The translations under genes were made by a program, and so were the position numbers. From Natronosalvus halobius (lineage in GTDB: Archaea; Halobacteriota; Halobacteria; Halobacteriales; Natrialbaceae): a DNA stretch of 64,000 nucleotides. Location: contig NZ_CP099997.1 in NCBI RefSeq assembly GCF_024138145.1, forward strand, positions 434,001 through 498,000. Reading direction: 5' to 3'. The notes below the pieces were generated by a model. That model did not search any database. It was given only the letters and a program-made list of their open reading frames with translations, and was not told the DNA's origin. Positions 7,350 through 52,566 of the stretch are shown here, piece by piece (within the stretch, counting starts at the first letter, position 1; the number at the start of each line of letters is the position of its first letter).

Positions 7350-8660
7350 ATGGCCATCACCGACGACGTACTCGTCATCGGCGGCGGACTCGCTGGTACG
7401 ACGGCGGCGCTCGCCGCGGCCGAACGGGGCGTCCAGGTACGCCTGCTCACCTACAAGCAGAGCACGCTCCGCCACGCCAGCGGGTTGATCGACGTCCTCG
7501 GGTACGCGCCCGACGGCCAGGGGCCACTCGCCGACCCCTTCGACGCCCTCGAGTCGCTCCCGGAGGGCCACCCCTACGAACGCGTGGGAAGCGATGCGGT
7601 TCGAGAGGCGCTACTCTTCTTCGACGCGGTCGTCGACGACGCCTACGCGGGCGAGCACACGGACGCAAACGCGCTCGTCCCCACCTCGAGCGGCGCGATC
7701 AAGCCCACGGCCCGCTACCCCACCGGCGTCGCGCCTGGGCTCGCGAGCGATCCCAGCGACGCGCTGCTCGTCGGCTTCGAGACGCTGCCCGAGTTCGACG
7801 CCCCGCTCGTCGCGGCCCACCTGGGGGACACCGGCGTTCCGTTCGAGGCTCGAGGCGTCACCCTCTCGTTCCCAGGCATCCGTCGGGACGACGCCAAGGT
7901 AACCCGATACGCGCACCTGCTCGACCGCGACGAGGGCGTCGATATCGGCCGCGGTGAGACCTCCGCGCGGGCCGCGTTGGCCGCCATCGTCCGCGATCAA
8001 CTCGAGGGCGAGTCCCGCGTAGGGTTCCCGCCAATCCTCGGCGACGACAATCACGCGACCGTCCGCCGGGACCTCCAGGAGCGCCTCGGCGTCGACGTCT
8101 TCGAAGTGCCTTCGGGACCGCCGAGCCTGCCCGGAATGCGCCTCGAGGATCGCCTGTACGACGCGCTCGAGGACGCCGGCGTTCGCGTCACGACGGGTGT
8201 CCCGGTCGTCGGCTACGAGGTGAGAGAAAGCGGACGCGGCGGTGGCTCGAATCCCGGCCGAATCGAACACGTCCTGGTCGACCGCAAGGGCCAAGACGTC
8301 CCCTACCGCGCCGACGAGTACGTCCTCGCCACCGGCGGTCTCGTCGGCAAGGGCGTTCGATCCGACCGCGAGCGGGTCTTCGACCCCATCTTCGACTGCC
8401 ACGTCGAGGCGTCACCGGACCGCTACGACTGGTTCGACGGCGATGCCTTCGGCGACCACCCGTTCGCTCGCTTCGGCGTGAGCGTCGACCGCGAGTTGCG
8501 CCCGCTCGACGCCGAGGACGACCTCGAGTTCGCGAACCTGCGGGCGGCGGGTGCCGTCCTCTCGGGCTACGACTTCGCCGCCGAGAAGTCCGGCAGCGGC
8601 GTCTCGCTCGCGACGGGGTTCGTCGCGGGCAACCGGGCCGGGTCGGAGGTGCGCAGATGA
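7350..8660 (+). CDS. gpdB: Glycerol-3-phosphate dehydrogenase subunit B
   Basis: GpdB is the second flavoprotein of the anaerobic-type glycerol-3-phosphate dehydrogenase and is thought to link subunit A to the membrane-associated subunit C. The 436-residue protein opens with an FAD-binding motif (DVLVIGGGLAGTTAALAAAE) and has the GlpB-type phrase RHASGLIDVLGY. The C-terminus KSGSGVSLATGFVAGNRA matches the flavin-contact end of the family. The start follows a perfect Shine-Dalgarno sequence. Its TGA overlaps the ATG of an 89-codon ORF by ATGA, so the usual direct overlap with gpdC is interrupted here. Confidence 0.93.
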   Translation: MAITDDVLVIGGGLAGTTAALAAAERGVQVRLLTYKQSTLRHASGLIDVLGYAPDGQGPLADPFDALESLPEGHPYERVGSDAVREALLFFDAVVDDAYAGEHTDANALVPTSSGAIKPTARYPTGVAPGLASDPSDALLVGFETLPEFDAPLVAAHLGDTGVPFEARGVTLSFPGIRRDDAKVTRYAHLLDRDEGVDIGRGETSARAALAAIVRDQLEGESRVGFPPILGDDNHATVRRDLQERLGVDVFEVPSGPPSLPGMRLEDRLYDALEDAGVRVTTGVPVVGYEVRESGRGGGSNPGRIEHVLVDRKGQDVPYRADEYVLATGGLVGKGVRSDRERVFDPIFDCHVEASPDRYDWFDGDAFGDHPFARFGVSVDRELRPLDAEDDLEFANLRAAGAVLSGYDFAAEKSGSGVSLATGFVAGNRAGSEVRR

Positions 8661-46703: not shown

Positions 46704-47261
46704 TTACCGATCCCGCTCGAGCGCCTCGTCCTCGAGCACGACGGGACAGTCGACGACGCGATAGGTGTCCATCGAGGGCATCTCGAGGATCTGCGTGCCC
46801 TCGTGAGTGCAGGCGACCGCGGGTGGGTCGGAAAAGTACTCACACTGGTGGCAGTAGCTTCGCTTCGGTACGGTCCGATACTCCCGTTCGGCGGACGCCT
46901 CGAGCGGCGTCTCCGTGGATTCGTCCTCGAGTTCCGCCCAGAGGCGCTCGCGATCGATTTCGGCGACGTCCTCCCGATCGAACAGGTCGTCGACGGCCGG
47001 GTCCCGCTTCGGCGGGGACGTCTCCTGGTCGGAGACTCGCGCCGCGAGGCCGCTGAGGGGGTCTGTGCGATCGTCAGGTTCCTGGGGGGCCGACTCGAGT
47101 GCTGGCGGTGCCTCGTCAGTTGTGGCGGGTTCGAGCGCCTGTTCGTCGAATGCCACGGCTCTCGCGTCCTCGTTCGGTTCTGACTCTGGGTCCAGTCTCG
47201 CGTCTAAGTCTTCGGAGTCCGGACTCGCCTCATCGCCGCCATCGCTTCCGTCGTCGGTCAT
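46704..47261 (-). CDS. Acidic protein with C-terminal cysteine cluster, unknown function
   Basis: I do not recognise this 185-residue protein. The first 115 residues are Asp/Glu/Pro-rich and probably disordered. The last 60 form a compact domain with Cys residues in SYCHQCEYFSDPPAVACTHEG and a final VVDCPVV, which together could bind one zinc or an Fe-S cluster (CxxC...C-x-H...C). Its ATG overlaps the stop of the upstream gene by 4 nt, so the two products are made together and may interact. Confidence 0.7.
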   Translation of the reverse strand: MTDDGSDGGDEASPDSEDLDARLDPESEPNEDARAVAFDEQALEPATTDEAPPALESAPQEPDDRTDPLSGLAARVSDQETSPPKRDPAVDDLFDREDVAEIDRERLWAELEDESTETPLEASAEREYRTVPKRSYCHQCEYFSDPPAVACTHEGTQILEMPSMDTYRVVDCPVVLEDEALERDR

Positions 47262-48202
47262 TCGCTCTCACCTCGTCCCACAGATCGTCGGTCGTCGACC
47301 GACGGTTCCGCGTCGGCCTCGACCGTCTCGAAGACCGACGTCGTCTCGTCGGTGTCGACCGCCGCGTGCGCCGCCGGTTCGAGGGCCGGCGGCTCGCCCG
47401 TCTCGAGCGTATGCGACCCCAGGAACGAACGCTTCTTCGAAACGTCCGCAAACTGGGTGCCACAGTGCGGGCAGGCCGGTTCGGTCAGGAGCCCCATCGA
47501 AACGGCCGTCGAACACGCCGCGCAGGTGGCCGTCTGAATCCCGAGCCGACTCGCCGCTCGCTGCAGTCGTTCGGCCTCCGAACGGCGACGCTCGCGAGCC
47601 GCGAGGGCGTCTCGCCGTTCGCGAAAGTCGAGCACCGCCGTCGCCAGCGTCGTCGACTGTCGCTCGAGTTCGTCGGTGGTCTCCAGGACGTGCTCGAGGA
47701 CGTCTTCGAAATTCTCGAAGCCCGAGTCGACCGTCTCCGAGAGGCCCTCGAGATCGGATTCGAGGCTCGACAGCGCGTCGACCCGGTCCTCGAATGCCGA
47801 CAATCGCTCCGCTACGGTCTCGAGATCCTCGTCGAGCGCTTCGACCGCCGAACGGGGGGCGTACTCGTCGTGGTCGTGGACCTCGGGTGCCTTTCGATCG
47901 GCCTCTCGCTTGACCTGAACGACGCGCTCGCGAACGTCCTCGACGTGGTCGACGAACTCGGTTCGCTGCTCCTGGAGTGCGGATCGGAGGGTTTGGGTGT
48001 CGACGGAATCAGCGGGTTCGACCGGATTATCGTCGTCGGGGCCCTCAGCGTCGGTGGTAACTGCGTGCGTCGCCGACAGAAGCTGTCGACAGAACGCCGC
48101 TCGCGTCTCGCCGCGCCGGTCGGACTCCTCGTCGATCCAATCGTTCACATCGGCCGGTAACGCGAACGAGACCGCCCCGTCCTCGTGGTTCTCGCTCGCC
48201 AT
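47258..48202 (-). CDS. RHH-like, coiled-coil and zinc-ribbon protein, unknown function
   Basis: This 314-residue protein has three parts. The N-terminus (VSFALPADVNDWIDEESDRRGETRAAFCRQLL) looks like a ribbon-helix-helix DNA-binding head. About residues 65-220 are predicted long coiled coil with heptad Leu/Val and many Glu/Arg. Then a four-Cys zinc ribbon (CAAC, 16 residues, CPHC) near 233-260 is followed by an acidic tail. It could be a regulator or a DNA-organising protein. ATG 48202 opens the RHH segment. It is the first gene of a two-gene unit with the cysteine-cluster protein. Confidence 0.7.
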   Translation of the reverse strand: MASENHEDGAVSFALPADVNDWIDEESDRRGETRAAFCRQLLSATHAVTTDAEGPDDDNPVEPADSVDTQTLRSALQEQRTEFVDHVEDVRERVVQVKREADRKAPEVHDHDEYAPRSAVEALDEDLETVAERLSAFEDRVDALSSLESDLEGLSETVDSGFENFEDVLEHVLETTDELERQSTTLATAVLDFRERRDALAARERRRSEAERLQRAASRLGIQTATCAACSTAVSMGLLTEPACPHCGTQFADVSKKRSFLGSHTLETGEPPALEPAAHAAVDTDETTSVFETVEADAEPSVDDRRSVGRGESE

Positions 48203-48423: not shown

Positions 48424-49266
48424 CTACCGAATCTTTCGTACGTTACTGATGTCGAATCCGCCGTCGCGAATCTCCGTTTCGAACTGGACGATGTTCTCGT
48501 CTTCGAGCCGCGAGAGTACCCCTCGAAACTCCTCGACGACCAACGTCCGATCTCGTTCGGATCCCCCGCTCTCCCACTCGAAGTGCAGCGTCCCATCGAC
48601 GGCTTCCTTGAGCCGACCGAACGCCTGCCCAGTGAGCGTTTCGACGTCGACGAGCAACAGAACGATGCCGCCCCAGCGGTACGCCGCTCGTTTGAGTCCC
48701 TTGAGCAGTATCGTCAAATCGCTCTGGGAGAACTGGTCGCTGGTGGCTGCGGCCGCGAGCAGATCCGTCGCGGAGTCGATGACGACCAGGTTCCCGGGAG
48801 CGTGTTCGGAGAGGTACTCGCCGAGCGCCTCGAGTACGTTCCGTCGGTTCGTCCCGGCACCCAGGTTCGTGATGTCGGTCCGGGCGGTGCTGTACCAGTC
48901 GGTCGGCACCGGGGTCAACTGGAAGAACTCCTGAGAGAGGTCGACGAACGAGACGGCCGACGTTCCAGCCTCGACGAGGTCGTCGTCCAGGACGAACGTC
49001 ATCTCGTCGACGATCGCGTCGCGCTCGCTCGTAAAGGAGACGTAGTGGACGTTGTCCGGGAGAGCGACGCCAGGCTCGAGGTCGCCGTAGTAGAACTCGA
49101 ACTGGTCGCCGTCTGCCCTGGCGAGGCCGTTCATGGCCGTCGCCGTGTAACAGAACTCCCGGCCGCCCGCACCCGCTTCGGTCGCCAGCAAGACGATGCT
49201 TCCGCTCGGCGCCCCGCCGCCGATCATCGCGTCGAATCGCGAGATTCCGAGTGGCATCCGCTGCAT
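48424..49266 (-). CDS. RecA-superfamily KaiC/HTR-like protein with degenerate P-loop
   Basis: The 280-residue protein follows the KaiC/RadA-like pattern: PLGISRFDAMIGGGAPSGSIVLL at the start, LVVIDSATDLLAA as Walker B, and LVVEEFRGVL near the end. The Walker A position reads TEAGAGGREF, so the usual GK[ST] is missing. Haloarchaea have several such HTR-like proteins, often near signalling genes; none is seen here. It may be a non-hydrolysing member. ATG 49266 (MQRMPLGIS) is chosen; upstream codons are not conserved-looking. Confidence 0.75.
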   Translation of the reverse strand: MQRMPLGISRFDAMIGGGAPSGSIVLLATEAGAGGREFCYTATAMNGLARADGDQFEFYYGDLEPGVALPDNVHYVSFTSERDAIVDEMTFVLDDDLVEAGTSAVSFVDLSQEFFQLTPVPTDWYSTARTDITNLGAGTNRRNVLEALGEYLSEHAPGNLVVIDSATDLLAAAATSDQFSQSDLTILLKGLKRAAYRWGGIVLLLVDVETLTGQAFGRLKEAVDGTLHFEWESGGSERDRTLVVEEFRGVLSRLEDENIVQFETEIRDGGFDISNVRKIR

Positions 49267-49421: not shown

Positions 49422-50291
49422 CTAGAGGAAGCTTTCGATCTGATCCGCGACTTCCTCGGGCGTGTCGCCAACGGGGACGCCCGCGTCGTTGAGCGCGTCG
49501 ATCTTGCTCTCTGCGGTGCCAGTTCCGGACCCGGAGACGATGGCGCCGGCGTGGCCCATCCGCTTTCCTGGCGGGGCCGTTCGGCCGGCAATGAAGCCCG
49601 CGACGGGCGTCTCGACGTGCTCGTCGATGTAAGCCGCGGCCTCCTCCTCGTCCTCGCCACCGATCTCGCCGCACATGACGATCGCCTTCGTGTCGGGATC
49701 GTTCTCGAACAGCTCGAGGGCGTCGACGAAGTCGGTGCCGATGATCGGGTCGCCGCCGATGCCGATGGCGGTCGTCTGGCCGATCCCGCGCTGGGTGAGA
49801 CTGTCGACGACCTGATAGGTCAACGTTCCGGAGCGGGAGACGAGACCGACGTCACCCTCGGCGAAGATGTTCCCCGGCAGGATGCCAAGCTTGGCCTCGC
49901 CGGGCGTGATCAGGCCGGGACAGTTCGGCCCGATGAGCCGCGTGTCGGTCTCGGTCAGGCGCTTGTTGACCTTCGCCATATCCTGGGTCGGGACACCCTC
50001 GGTGATCGCGACCGCGAGGTCGAGGTCCGTGTCCAGGGCCTCGAAGATGGCGTCCGCGGCGAACGCGGGCGGGACGAAGATGACCGACGCGTCCGCGTCC
50101 TCTTCCTCGACGGCCTCGTCGACCGTGTCGTAGACCGGGACGCCGTGGACTTCCTGACCTCCCTTTCCAGGGACGGCGCCGGCGACCACGTTGGTCCCGT
50201 ACTCGAGCATCTGTCCGGCGTGGAACTTCCCTTCGCCGCCGGTGATTCCCTGTACAACCACGCGAGTGTCGTCGTCGACTAGAACGCTCAT
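49422..50291 (-). CDS. sucD: Succinyl-CoA ligase, alpha subunit
   Basis: SucD carries the CoA-binding domain and the phosphorylated His of succinyl-CoA ligase, which makes ATP or GTP in the TCA cycle. The 289-residue protein has the CoA-site [22 protein letters not shown], the GNCPGLITP-like segment [15 protein letters not shown], and the active His in [19 protein letters not shown]. Its ATG overlaps the sucC stop by 4 nt, and GAGGAGGGAG directly upstream acts as ribosome site. Confidence 0.97.
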
Positions 50292-51667: not shown

Positions 51668-51700
51668 ATGCCTCTCCTCGCGGAATGCTCGGAGAGGCAT
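51668..51700. terminator. 10-bp perfect hairpin at the tRNA-Leu 3' end
   Basis: ATGCCTCTCC (51668-51677) and GGAGAGGCAT (51691-51700) form a perfect stem with a 13-nt loop. The stem begins at the tRNA discriminator base on the minus strand. It could end transcription or guide 3' processing of the tRNA precursor. Confidence 0.5.
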
Positions 51701-51781
51701 GCGCGGGACAGGATTCGAACCTGCGGACTCCTACGAGACAGCGTCCTAAGCGCTGCGCCGTTACCACTTGGCTACCCGCGC
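51700..51781 (-). tRNA. tRNA-Leu (anticodon UAG)
   Basis: On the minus strand the acceptor GCGCGGG pairs with CCCGCGC, followed by discriminator A at 51700. The D arm has TAGCCAAGTGG, the anticodon stem CAGCG/CGCTG encloses loop CTTAGGA with anticodon TAG, a type II variable arm (TCTCGTAGGAG) is present, and the T arm contains GGTTCGAATCC. The 82-nt length and long variable arm fit Leu. No CCA is encoded. Confidence 0.95.
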
Positions 51782-52000: not shown

Positions 52001-52226
52001 GTGGTGACGCGTACCCCCCGCCGGGTGCGTGGTCGTCGCTTCGAATCCGAACCGCTTTAGTAAGAGTGACCTAGTGAAATCCCGGGCGAAGGGCCAGTTA
52101 GCCTAGGGTTTCGTAGCTGGACGTTGTCTGGCGTAGCACGTTATTGCGATGAGAGTCACAGCCACCGCCATAGTCCTCGACAGATGAACGACGGTGGGAC
52201 GCGACGGGAGCGATCGCCAACCGTGT

Positions 52227-52234
52227 GTTTATGG
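52227..52234 (+). promoter_or_regulatory. TATA box of the TFB-like gene
   Basis: GTTTATGG lies 24-31 nt before ATG 52258, which fits a leaderless promoter and supports this start over the in-frame upstream codon at 52225. Confidence 0.5.
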
Positions 52235-52257
52235 TGCAACCATCCGTTGTAACGAGC

Positions 52258-52566
52258 ATGTATAGCGCCAATACGCGCGTCGAACACGAACCGTGGCTCG
52301 AGGAACTCGAGCAGGCCGCGGATCGCCTCGAGCTGACGGGCGAGGCTCGCTCGACGGCTGCCGATCTCTTTCTCGCGAACGTGCCCGAGGCCGACCGATC
52401 GAAGCCGGCAGTGCTGGCTGCGAGCATCTACGCCGGATCGCTCGTCGCGGGCGATGGCCGCACCCAGTGTGCTGTCGCCGACGCCGCAGACGTCTCCCGC
52501 CTCTCGATCCAACAGCGCTGGAAGGACCTGCTGGCCGGCGCCGGGCTCGAGCCGCCGAAGTGGTAG
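52258..52566 (+). CDS. Stand-alone cyclin-fold protein related to TFB
   Basis: The 102-residue protein looks like one core repeat of transcription factor B without the zinc ribbon or second repeat. WLEELEQAADRLELTGEARSTAADLF is followed by RSKPAVLAASIYAGSLVAG and VADAADVSRLSIQQRWKDLL, the last being the TFB-like HTH. Proteins like this are widespread in haloarchaea as I recall, but their role is unknown; it may modulate promoter use or bind another partner. It is a single gene. Confidence 0.75.
   Translation: MYSANTRVEHEPWLEELEQAADRLELTGEARSTAADLFLANVPEADRSKPAVLAASIYAGSLVAGDGRTQCAVADAADVSRLSIQQRWKDLLAGAGLEPPKW

Follow-up and report, generated by a model that had tools for sequence, protein, structure and literature searches.

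The window studied here is a stretch of 64,000 nucleotides of the haloarchaeon Natronosalvus halobius (contig NZ_CP099997.1, positions 434,001 to 498,000). It harbours two overlapping genes, here called gene 1 and gene 2, which a sequence-only reading had described as encoding a protein with a DNA-binding head, a long coiled coil and a zinc ribbon, and a cysteine-cluster protein that could be its partner. Both open reading frames (ORFs) and their ATGA overlap were confirmed, and both lie on the minus strand (Table 1). The two genes are the last two of a three-gene unit, KaiC-like gene, gene 1, gene 2, referred to below as the cassette. The earlier observation of a coupled pair holds, but it missed the conserved KaiC-like gene just upstream.

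The three genes of the cassette

Neither gene 1 nor gene 2 matched any listed Pfam or NCBIfam family over its cut-off, in agreement with their earlier description as unknown proteins. The gene 1 protein consists of a ribbon-helix-helix (RHH)-like head (residues ~10-49), a coiled coil (~69-219) and a zinc ribbon. In an AlphaFold2 model of the monomer, made from a 3-sequence alignment, the coil is built from helices 69-104, 116-159 and 165-219; a Foldseek search with this model gave no PDB match at E ≤ 0.001. The coil holds a strongly conserved patch, EDVRxRVIQVKRExDxKAPxDHxH, and the zinc ribbon cysteines C227, C230, C244 and C247 are invariant across 29 sequences, so that the predicted coiled coil and zinc ribbon are both borne out. 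The conserved DHxH motif (VHDH in the window) lies mid-coil at residues ~104-111. HxH motifs bind metal in some trimeric fibres, and by analogy the gene 1 coil may hold metal at this position. A second gene 1-like protein with ~28-30 % identity was found at L077 (G045:C1:1788686-1789477), with no KaiC-like or gene 2 match beside it in tblastn.

In the gene 2 protein cysteines C137, C140, C151 and C172, invariant across 31 sequences, form a C-terminal module of the pattern C-x2-C-x10-C-x20-C-P, as was expected of a cysteine-cluster protein. Short motifs (PLxxLA and LFxxEDVxEIDxDxLWExL) are conserved in its N-terminal part of low model confidence; the model as a whole, with a mean predicted local distance difference test score (pLDDT) of 52, is too poor for use. 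Searches with gene 2 against Pfam and NCBIfam (E up to 5) and PADLOC (E up to 0.01) returned nothing, toxin families included. Single-sequence searches of 61 genomes, that of N. halobius included, found homologues of gene 1 in 35 and of gene 2 in 34. The 4-base overlap between the two genes recurs in 17 of the 35 relatives measured, with starts chosen automatically and two of the relatives (L001 and L051) from one genome.

The head of gene 1 was analyzed in 26 sequences picked for having an alignable head (alignment A6; L002, L049, L066, L069, L070, L073 and several near-copies were left out). PF01402 (RHH_1) was matched by 10 of these, at best with E 2.8e-6, while the window's own head gave E 0.15. 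Profile matches to PDB entries were weak and of the RHH type (VapB26, E 0.024; AvtR, E 0.04). The model has head helices at 17-30 and 34-49 and reaches a pLDDT of 82-87 in blocks 21-40; pLDDT is low in the strand region (33-58) and at the end of the second helix (47), and the strand is not modelled. Basic residues in the DNA-facing strand are a criterion for DNA binding by RHH proteins. The putative DNA-facing strand contains Lys or Arg in 4 of the 26 heads and neither residue in the other 22, the window's included. In addition, the head profile scored below 10 bits in 6 of 51 gene 1 ORFs (L049, L066, L069, L073, L083 and L087), all of which keep their coil and ribbon profile matches. Of the DNA-binding head proposed earlier, an RHH-like signature is thus probable in most members, but DNA binding itself is called into question by the strand and by the unrecognisable heads, and dimerisation is an equally good use of this domain.

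The first gene of the cassette encodes a KaiC-superfamily pseudo-ATPase (pseudo-KaiC), which is 278 amino acids (aa) long in many relatives. The window protein scored 27.4 bits (310-aa reading) and 27.9 bits (280 aa) against PF06745, over the cut-off of 26.6, which places it in the KaiC superfamily. Its Walker A motif is degenerate, ATEAGAGGREF in the window and GAGxREF or similar in relatives, and a PDB profile search aligned this stretch to KaiC P-loops. Classical GK[ST] was found in none of 32 haloarchaeal pseudo-KaiC sequences, one of them truncated and two from one genome. Where active partners read SLEE the window protein reads SFTSER, with SFTxE or similar in 21 aligned sequences, as judged by eye. 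The Walker A pattern G....GK[ST] and the catalytic Glu pair of active KaiC and Cir-type proteins are thus both lost, while a Walker B-like LVVIDS is kept and the C-terminus FETEIxDxGFDISNVRKIR is nearly invariant. Judged by these motifs the cassette KaiC looks catalytically dead, and it may bind ATP or signal without hydrolysis.

In 43 of 55 loci the gene finder places the three genes side by side on one strand with nothing in between, and genes 1 and 2 are same-strand neighbours in every locus read in which both were found. Among the other loci, L055 and L062 carry an extra ORF between the KaiC gene and gene 1, at L089 the KaiC gene lies several genes off, and L002, L070, L091 and L093 have genes 1 and 2 without an adjacent KaiC gene; the genomes of the last three have the KaiC gene elsewhere (at L092 for L091). 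At L090 a single ORF, matched as the cluster of gene 2, stands between the KaiC gene and TFS (transcript cleavage factor). The cassette of L068 was overlooked by the gene finder, and tblastn found all three genes in order. L064 looks like a half-finished cassette loss: between RFAP synthase and TFS only a match to the first ~96 residues of gene 1 was found. At L046 (G004:C12, ~7814-8614) an in-frame fusion joins the head and some of the coil of gene 1, without the zinc ribbon, to the four-cysteine (Cys4) module of gene 2, beside a truncated KaiC gene; it is either a minimal version of the cassette or a decaying one.

The cassette is present or absent as a block. Its usual flanks are an RFAP synthase-type gene (TIGR00144), whose cluster occurs in 34 of 55 loci, and TFS (TIGR01384), which occurs in 44 and directly follows gene 2 in 35; IlvD is a further recurrent neighbour that could be named. 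The single-sequence search had left 26 genomes with no match to gene 1, and the TFS locus was read in 18 of them (G006, G037, G038, G044, G046, G048, G053 and G059 were left unread). RFAP synthase and TFS stand on one strand without a cassette match (tblastn, E ≤ 1e-3) in 15 of these loci, separated by 51-301 bp in 10 and by 711-1937 bp in 5, and in the remaining 3 the stretch read gave no RFAP synthase. On an RFAP synthase gene tree of 47 rows, on which gain and loss are indistinguishable, the state of the cassette changes at least 12 times, 8 of them forced by supported branches, and the cassette label is no more clustered than in shuffles (104 and 131 of 500 were as low).

Within the genus of the window the cassette has another setting. 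The sucCD genes lie beside it only here and at L044, L045, L046 and L048, all of this genus, and this flank marks a relocation of the cassette within the genus. Genes rps17e, citG and the DUF447 gene of the window flank also occur at L044 and L048, and at L059 of another genus. A short ORF in the window is similar to the C-terminal portion of TFB (NF001658, E 2.8e-8, with a score well short of the cut-off) and is kept at L044, L045 and L048.

Table 1 Positions of the cassette genes and other features in the window and of related genes elsewhere in the N. halobius genome (G000)
Feature	Position	Strand	Description
Pseudo-KaiC gene	48424..49266	minus	KaiC-superfamily pseudo-ATPase, first cassette gene; 280 aa from ATG at 49266
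Gene 1	48202..47258	minus	314 aa from ATG; head, coiled coil, zinc ribbon, low-confidence acidic tail
ATGA overlap	47258..47261	minus	stop of gene 1 and start of gene 2
Gene 2	47261..46704	minus	185 aa; acidic N-terminal part and C-terminal four-cysteine module
sucD	49422..50291	minus	upstream neighbour outside the cassette
tRNA-Leu gene	51700-51781	minus	
TFB-like short ORF	52225-52566		
Cassette, genome position	C1:480.7-483.3 kb		
TFS	C1:671627		
PilB-like gene	C1:1360429-1361955		
KaiC_arch_3 gene	C1:1891564-1892238		

Co-presence with an active KaiC and a pilus ATPase

Across 243 haloarchaeal genomes the cassette genes occur together, and their presence follows that of an active KaiC of the KaiC_arch_3 family and of a PilB-like type IV pilus ATPase. 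With thresholds of our own choice, pseudo-KaiC was counted as present at E below 1e-100 (of 201 matches listed, 9 intermediate and 17 weak ones were counted absent) and the PilB-like ATPase at a best E ≤ 1e-188, which includes the intermediate scores of G014, G081, G111 and G183, the next weaker being ~1e-178; for KaiC_arch_3, 177 of the 209 listed were over the cut-off. This gave 175 genomes with a strong pseudo-KaiC match, 171 with gene 1, 174 with gene 2, 177 with KaiC_arch_3, 183 with the PilB-like gene and 132 with CheF. Genes 1 and 2 were found together in 169 genomes, gene 1 alone in 2, gene 2 alone in 5 and neither in 67 (169/2/5/67, phi 0.93). Since the two genes are linked and co-occur, the case that had been named as speaking against their coupling, two genes mostly unlinked in relatives, does not apply; position and co-occurrence strongly support the second protein as partner of the first. 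Counted in the same way, the pairs with pseudo-KaiC gave 172/3/2/66 for gene 2 (phi 0.95), 170/5/7/61 for KaiC_arch_3 (phi 0.88) and 171/4/12/56 for the PilB-like gene (phi 0.83), and KaiC_arch_3 with the PilB-like gene gave 174/3/9/57 (phi 0.87). CheF, taken as a control, followed pseudo-KaiC loosely (115/60/17/51, phi 0.37). Several genomes with only one member of a pair are incomplete.

Comparisons between related genomes point in the same direction. Among strict independent pairs, drawn from 38 of 49 listed genomes, KaiC_arch_3 was concordant with the cassette in 4 of 4 and the PilB-like gene in 3 of 4, or in 4 of 4 with intermediate scores counted absent. In hand-formed disjoint pairs, four within a genus (g8 G229/G215, g13 G169/G019, g5 G011/G221 and g29 G240/G035) and three within a family (f4 G055/G224, f6 G079/G041 and f5 G142/G094), both genes went with the cassette in all seven. 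Genomes at least 90 % complete had a median of 5 PF07790 pilins with the cassette (32 genomes) compared to 3 without it (16 genomes), P 2.5e-5, not corrected for kinship; G044 and G046 were left out because of their KaiC matches, and G035 was counted as absent. A T2SSF gene comes after the haloarchaeal PilB-like gene in all 16 loci mapped, of 18. No pilin was recognised by eye among the neighbour clusters of this operon that were inspected, which fits the PilB3 locus as described in PMC4858521.

Some further observations concern these loci. A conserved gene of ~157 aa occurs in 15 of 18 PilB-like loci (L164:5450-5923 and others), divergent from the operon in the maps, and at L170 and L171 (G046:C87, G044:C1) the PilB-like operon lies near a MinD-like ATPase and a further protein that looks KaiC-like by eye. 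The open frames of haloarchaeal KaiC_arch_3 (L144-L163) include a long N-terminal stretch that is acidic, and in 15 of 19 KaiC_arch_3 loci a gene that by eye resembles NAD kinase is found, mostly divergent beside the KaiC_arch_3 gene.

A search at the level of the phylum covered 196 genomes and found pseudo-KaiC relatives, many of them full-length, with E ~1e-40 to 1e-70; 20 such places were examined, the haloarchaeal ones among them including, by kinship code, L139 (a divergent paralogue) and L141. GK[ST] was found in none of the 20 pseudo-KaiC sequences. A KaiC with GK[ST] directly follows in 15 of the 20 loci (aligned as A7); at L133 and L134 such a gene was seen by eye, and at L142 and L139 no following live KaiC was found. 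The four following KaiCs that were scored were all over the cut-off of TIGR03880 (KaiC_arch_3), and nine of the pseudo/active pairs share a 4-base overlap. A T2SSE ATPase gene stands divergently in 11 of the 20 loci, with a T2SSF gene beyond (aligned as A8), so that linkage to type IV pilus genes outside typical haloarchaea adds to the co-occurrence within them. The two T2SSE ATPases scored (L124 and L126) matched archaellum FlaI best, with E 1.7e-120 and 2.6e-115, below the equivalog cut-off, and at L126 ArlJ was also a best match. The haloarchaeon G046 (L141) carries the pseudo/active KaiC pair and has no gene 1 or gene 2 match.

Known systems and alternative readings

KaiC families arCOG01172 and arCOG01173 are possibly co-transcribed with VirB11/TadC pilus operons in Methanomicrobia, and a regulatory role was proposed for these KaiCs, with a second component that is mostly unknown (Makarova et al. 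2016, PMC4858521). The loci are alike in that KaiC-like ATPase genes lie beside a secretion ATPase and TadC. They differ in that the KaiC of the cassette is degenerate and has other proteins as neighbours in haloarchaea. The parts covered of that paper were found to mention neither the haloarchaeal cassette nor gene 1 or gene 2, and a search of the open-access literature, mostly at abstract level, yielded no description that was recognised of these genes or their co-loss. An association of KaiC proteins with pili was already on record in 2016.

The NCBIfam family that pseudo-KaiC matches best (E 7.6e-11) is ArlH (FlaH), a KaiC-like protein that serves as adaptor to an ArlI-type ATPase. However, pseudo-KaiC scores 42.1 bits against a cut-off of 215 for ArlH (NF052589), has lost the P-loop lysine and is only weakly followed by CheF in its distribution. 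A link to the archaellum or chemotaxis was rejected on this loose distribution and because the window genome has no CheF match. CirA-D of Haloferax are haloarchaeal members of the KaiC family as well, and cirA and cirD deletions alter motility (PMC13286277), but all four are reported to carry both Walker motifs, A and B, as well as the Glu pair (PMC3941300), unlike the cassette KaiC. Studies of CirA/CirD and CsmR showed that loss of KaiC-like proteins alters archaellation, motility or shape, and the effects of deleting csmR and of deleting cirA overlap to a large extent (PMC13286277); these proteins are the nearest experimental precedent. Identity of the cassette KaiC with a Cir protein was rejected, since the Cir motifs are reported intact and published cir quantitative PCR primers were unmatched in the cassette KaiC (forward primers were searched as exact matches in all loci, and all eight with at most 2 mismatches in 22 loci including the cassette loci L072 and L079). 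Identity of KaiC_arch_3 with CirB is not claimed: the cirB forward primer fits L162 with 1 mismatch and L146 with 2, and in the g47 loci, taken as Haloferax from their carotenoid neighbours, the gene fits the reverse primer only with 5 mismatches and the forward primer not at all.

The RHH_1 matches of gene 1 heads call CdrL to mind, a haloarchaeal protein with an RHH head and a C-terminal zinc-ribbon domain that binds one genomic site (PMC7439475). Gene 1 could accordingly be read as a CdrL-like regulator whose activity the KaiC-like protein controls; gene 2 would be a co-regulator and pili one target among others. CsmR and CirA, a DNA-binding regulator and a KaiC-like protein sharing a regulon (PMC13286277), offer a precedent. 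CdrL, unlike gene 1 with its one Cys4 ribbon, is described as having a double zinc ribbon and is encoded beside cdrS-ftsZ2. Identity of gene 1 with CdrL was rejected: N. halobius has a separate CdrL-like ORF (L100:2471-3118) beside an FtsZ-family gene, unmatched by the gene 1 profile at E ≤ 10. As most heads lack a basic strand and several ORFs keep coil and ribbon with an unrecognisable head, a regulator of this kind seems rather doubtful. The separate CdrL-like gene also stands against the chromosome- or division-linked scaffold that was originally proposed. RHH heads are generally known to occur in segregation proteins and the coil gave weak ASRP/Rad50/SMC-like matches, the usual coiled-coil background, but the cassette is patchy, with at least 8-12 changes of presence state on the tree, none of the recurrent neighbours that could be named (most neighbour clusters are unnamed) is a chromosome or division gene, and presence follows the pilus ATPase and active KaiC. 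The scaffold is therefore unsupported and very unlikely.

A functional tie to the neighbouring TFS, suggested by its frequent position after gene 2, is improbable, because TFS-like genes occur in all 61 genomes, with or without the cassette, and ~190 kb separate the two in the window genome; TFS was rejected as a partner on the former count. Overlapping small genes with a patchy distribution, and an RHH head of the kind generally common in antitoxins, might also suggest a mobile or defence pair (toxin-antitoxin or anti-phage). In PADLOC gene 1 matched long coiled-coil models only, and the other two cassette proteins had no match. Scans of viral contigs with patterns from the gene 2 and KaiC-like alignments (gene 1 was not scanned) gave no relative confirmed by tblastn, and the cassette occupies a common chromosomal site in many relatives, so that this reading is extremely unlikely.

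A possible role in pilus control

Co-presence with an unlinked live KaiC and a type IV pilus motor argues for pilus control: the cassette probably helps control surface pili rather than chromosomes, and the chances that it is linked to type IV pilus control are put at about even. It would then serve a haloarchaeal type IV pilus of PilB/PilC type, perhaps a PilB3-like one, as an ArlH-like accessory and signalling module. The degenerate KaiC and the active KaiC_arch_3, which is encoded elsewhere in haloarchaea and next door in most other archaea read, may together act as sensor or adaptor of the pilus ATPase, in the way that ArlH serves ArlI. Gene 1 would be a dimeric coiled-coil scaffold whose zinc ribbon, together with the Cys4 protein of gene 2, docks on pseudo-KaiC and passes on its state, so that genes 1 and 2 would form the haloarchaeal output branch of the dead KaiC. 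The output may go to pilus assembly, or to promoters in lineages with a basic RHH strand. Each predicted physical contact in this model is held with less than even confidence, and the metal, the way in which signals would run and any influence on pili are likewise putative.

Several observations weigh against the pilus model. In the window genome the cassette, the KaiC_arch_3 gene and the PilB-like gene lie hundreds of kb apart. Genome G232 (99 % complete) keeps the cassette without both partners, and G014, G111 and G183 (99 % complete) lack the cassette and KaiC_arch_3 at an intermediate PilB-like score; choosing any of these four for g8 would give partly discordant pairs. The strict independent-pair tests are underpowered (p 0.125-0.25), and PF07790 pilins persist in genomes without the cassette. 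In the phylum search no T2SSE was aligned in 9 of the 20 loci, and the second KaiC of L137 reads GTGRT. The assignment of the PilB-like operon as PilB3-PilC3 is a guess. Finally, five genomes of family f12 (G154, G165, G194, G198 and G203) gave no match to gene 1 and yet retain gene 2 and the KaiC-like gene, and the gene 1 of L097 encodes just 81 aa, so that gene 1 is not always needed.

In a bolder and distinctly less likely form of the pilus model, haloarchaea would have rebuilt an old two-KaiC pilus switch, in which the dead KaiC swapped its genomic neighbour, the live KaiC, for a two-protein output branch. A four-part relay of live KaiC, dead KaiC, scaffold (the coiled-coil zinc-ribbon protein) and metal or redox protein (the Cys4 protein) would then couple ATP or redox state to PilB-driven assembly. 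If true, this would provide one archaeal KaiC signalling system with its missing second component. Many archaeal KaiC-like ATPases are without known outputs. For one of them the cassette, a compact and conserved unit that is missing time and again, names as candidate partners an active KaiC, the zinc-ribbon protein with its coiled coil and the Cys4 protein, and it ties these to a type IV pilus motor; haloarchaea attach to surfaces with machines of this kind. Control of pili by KaiC proteins would thereby become directly testable through a few single-gene deletions.

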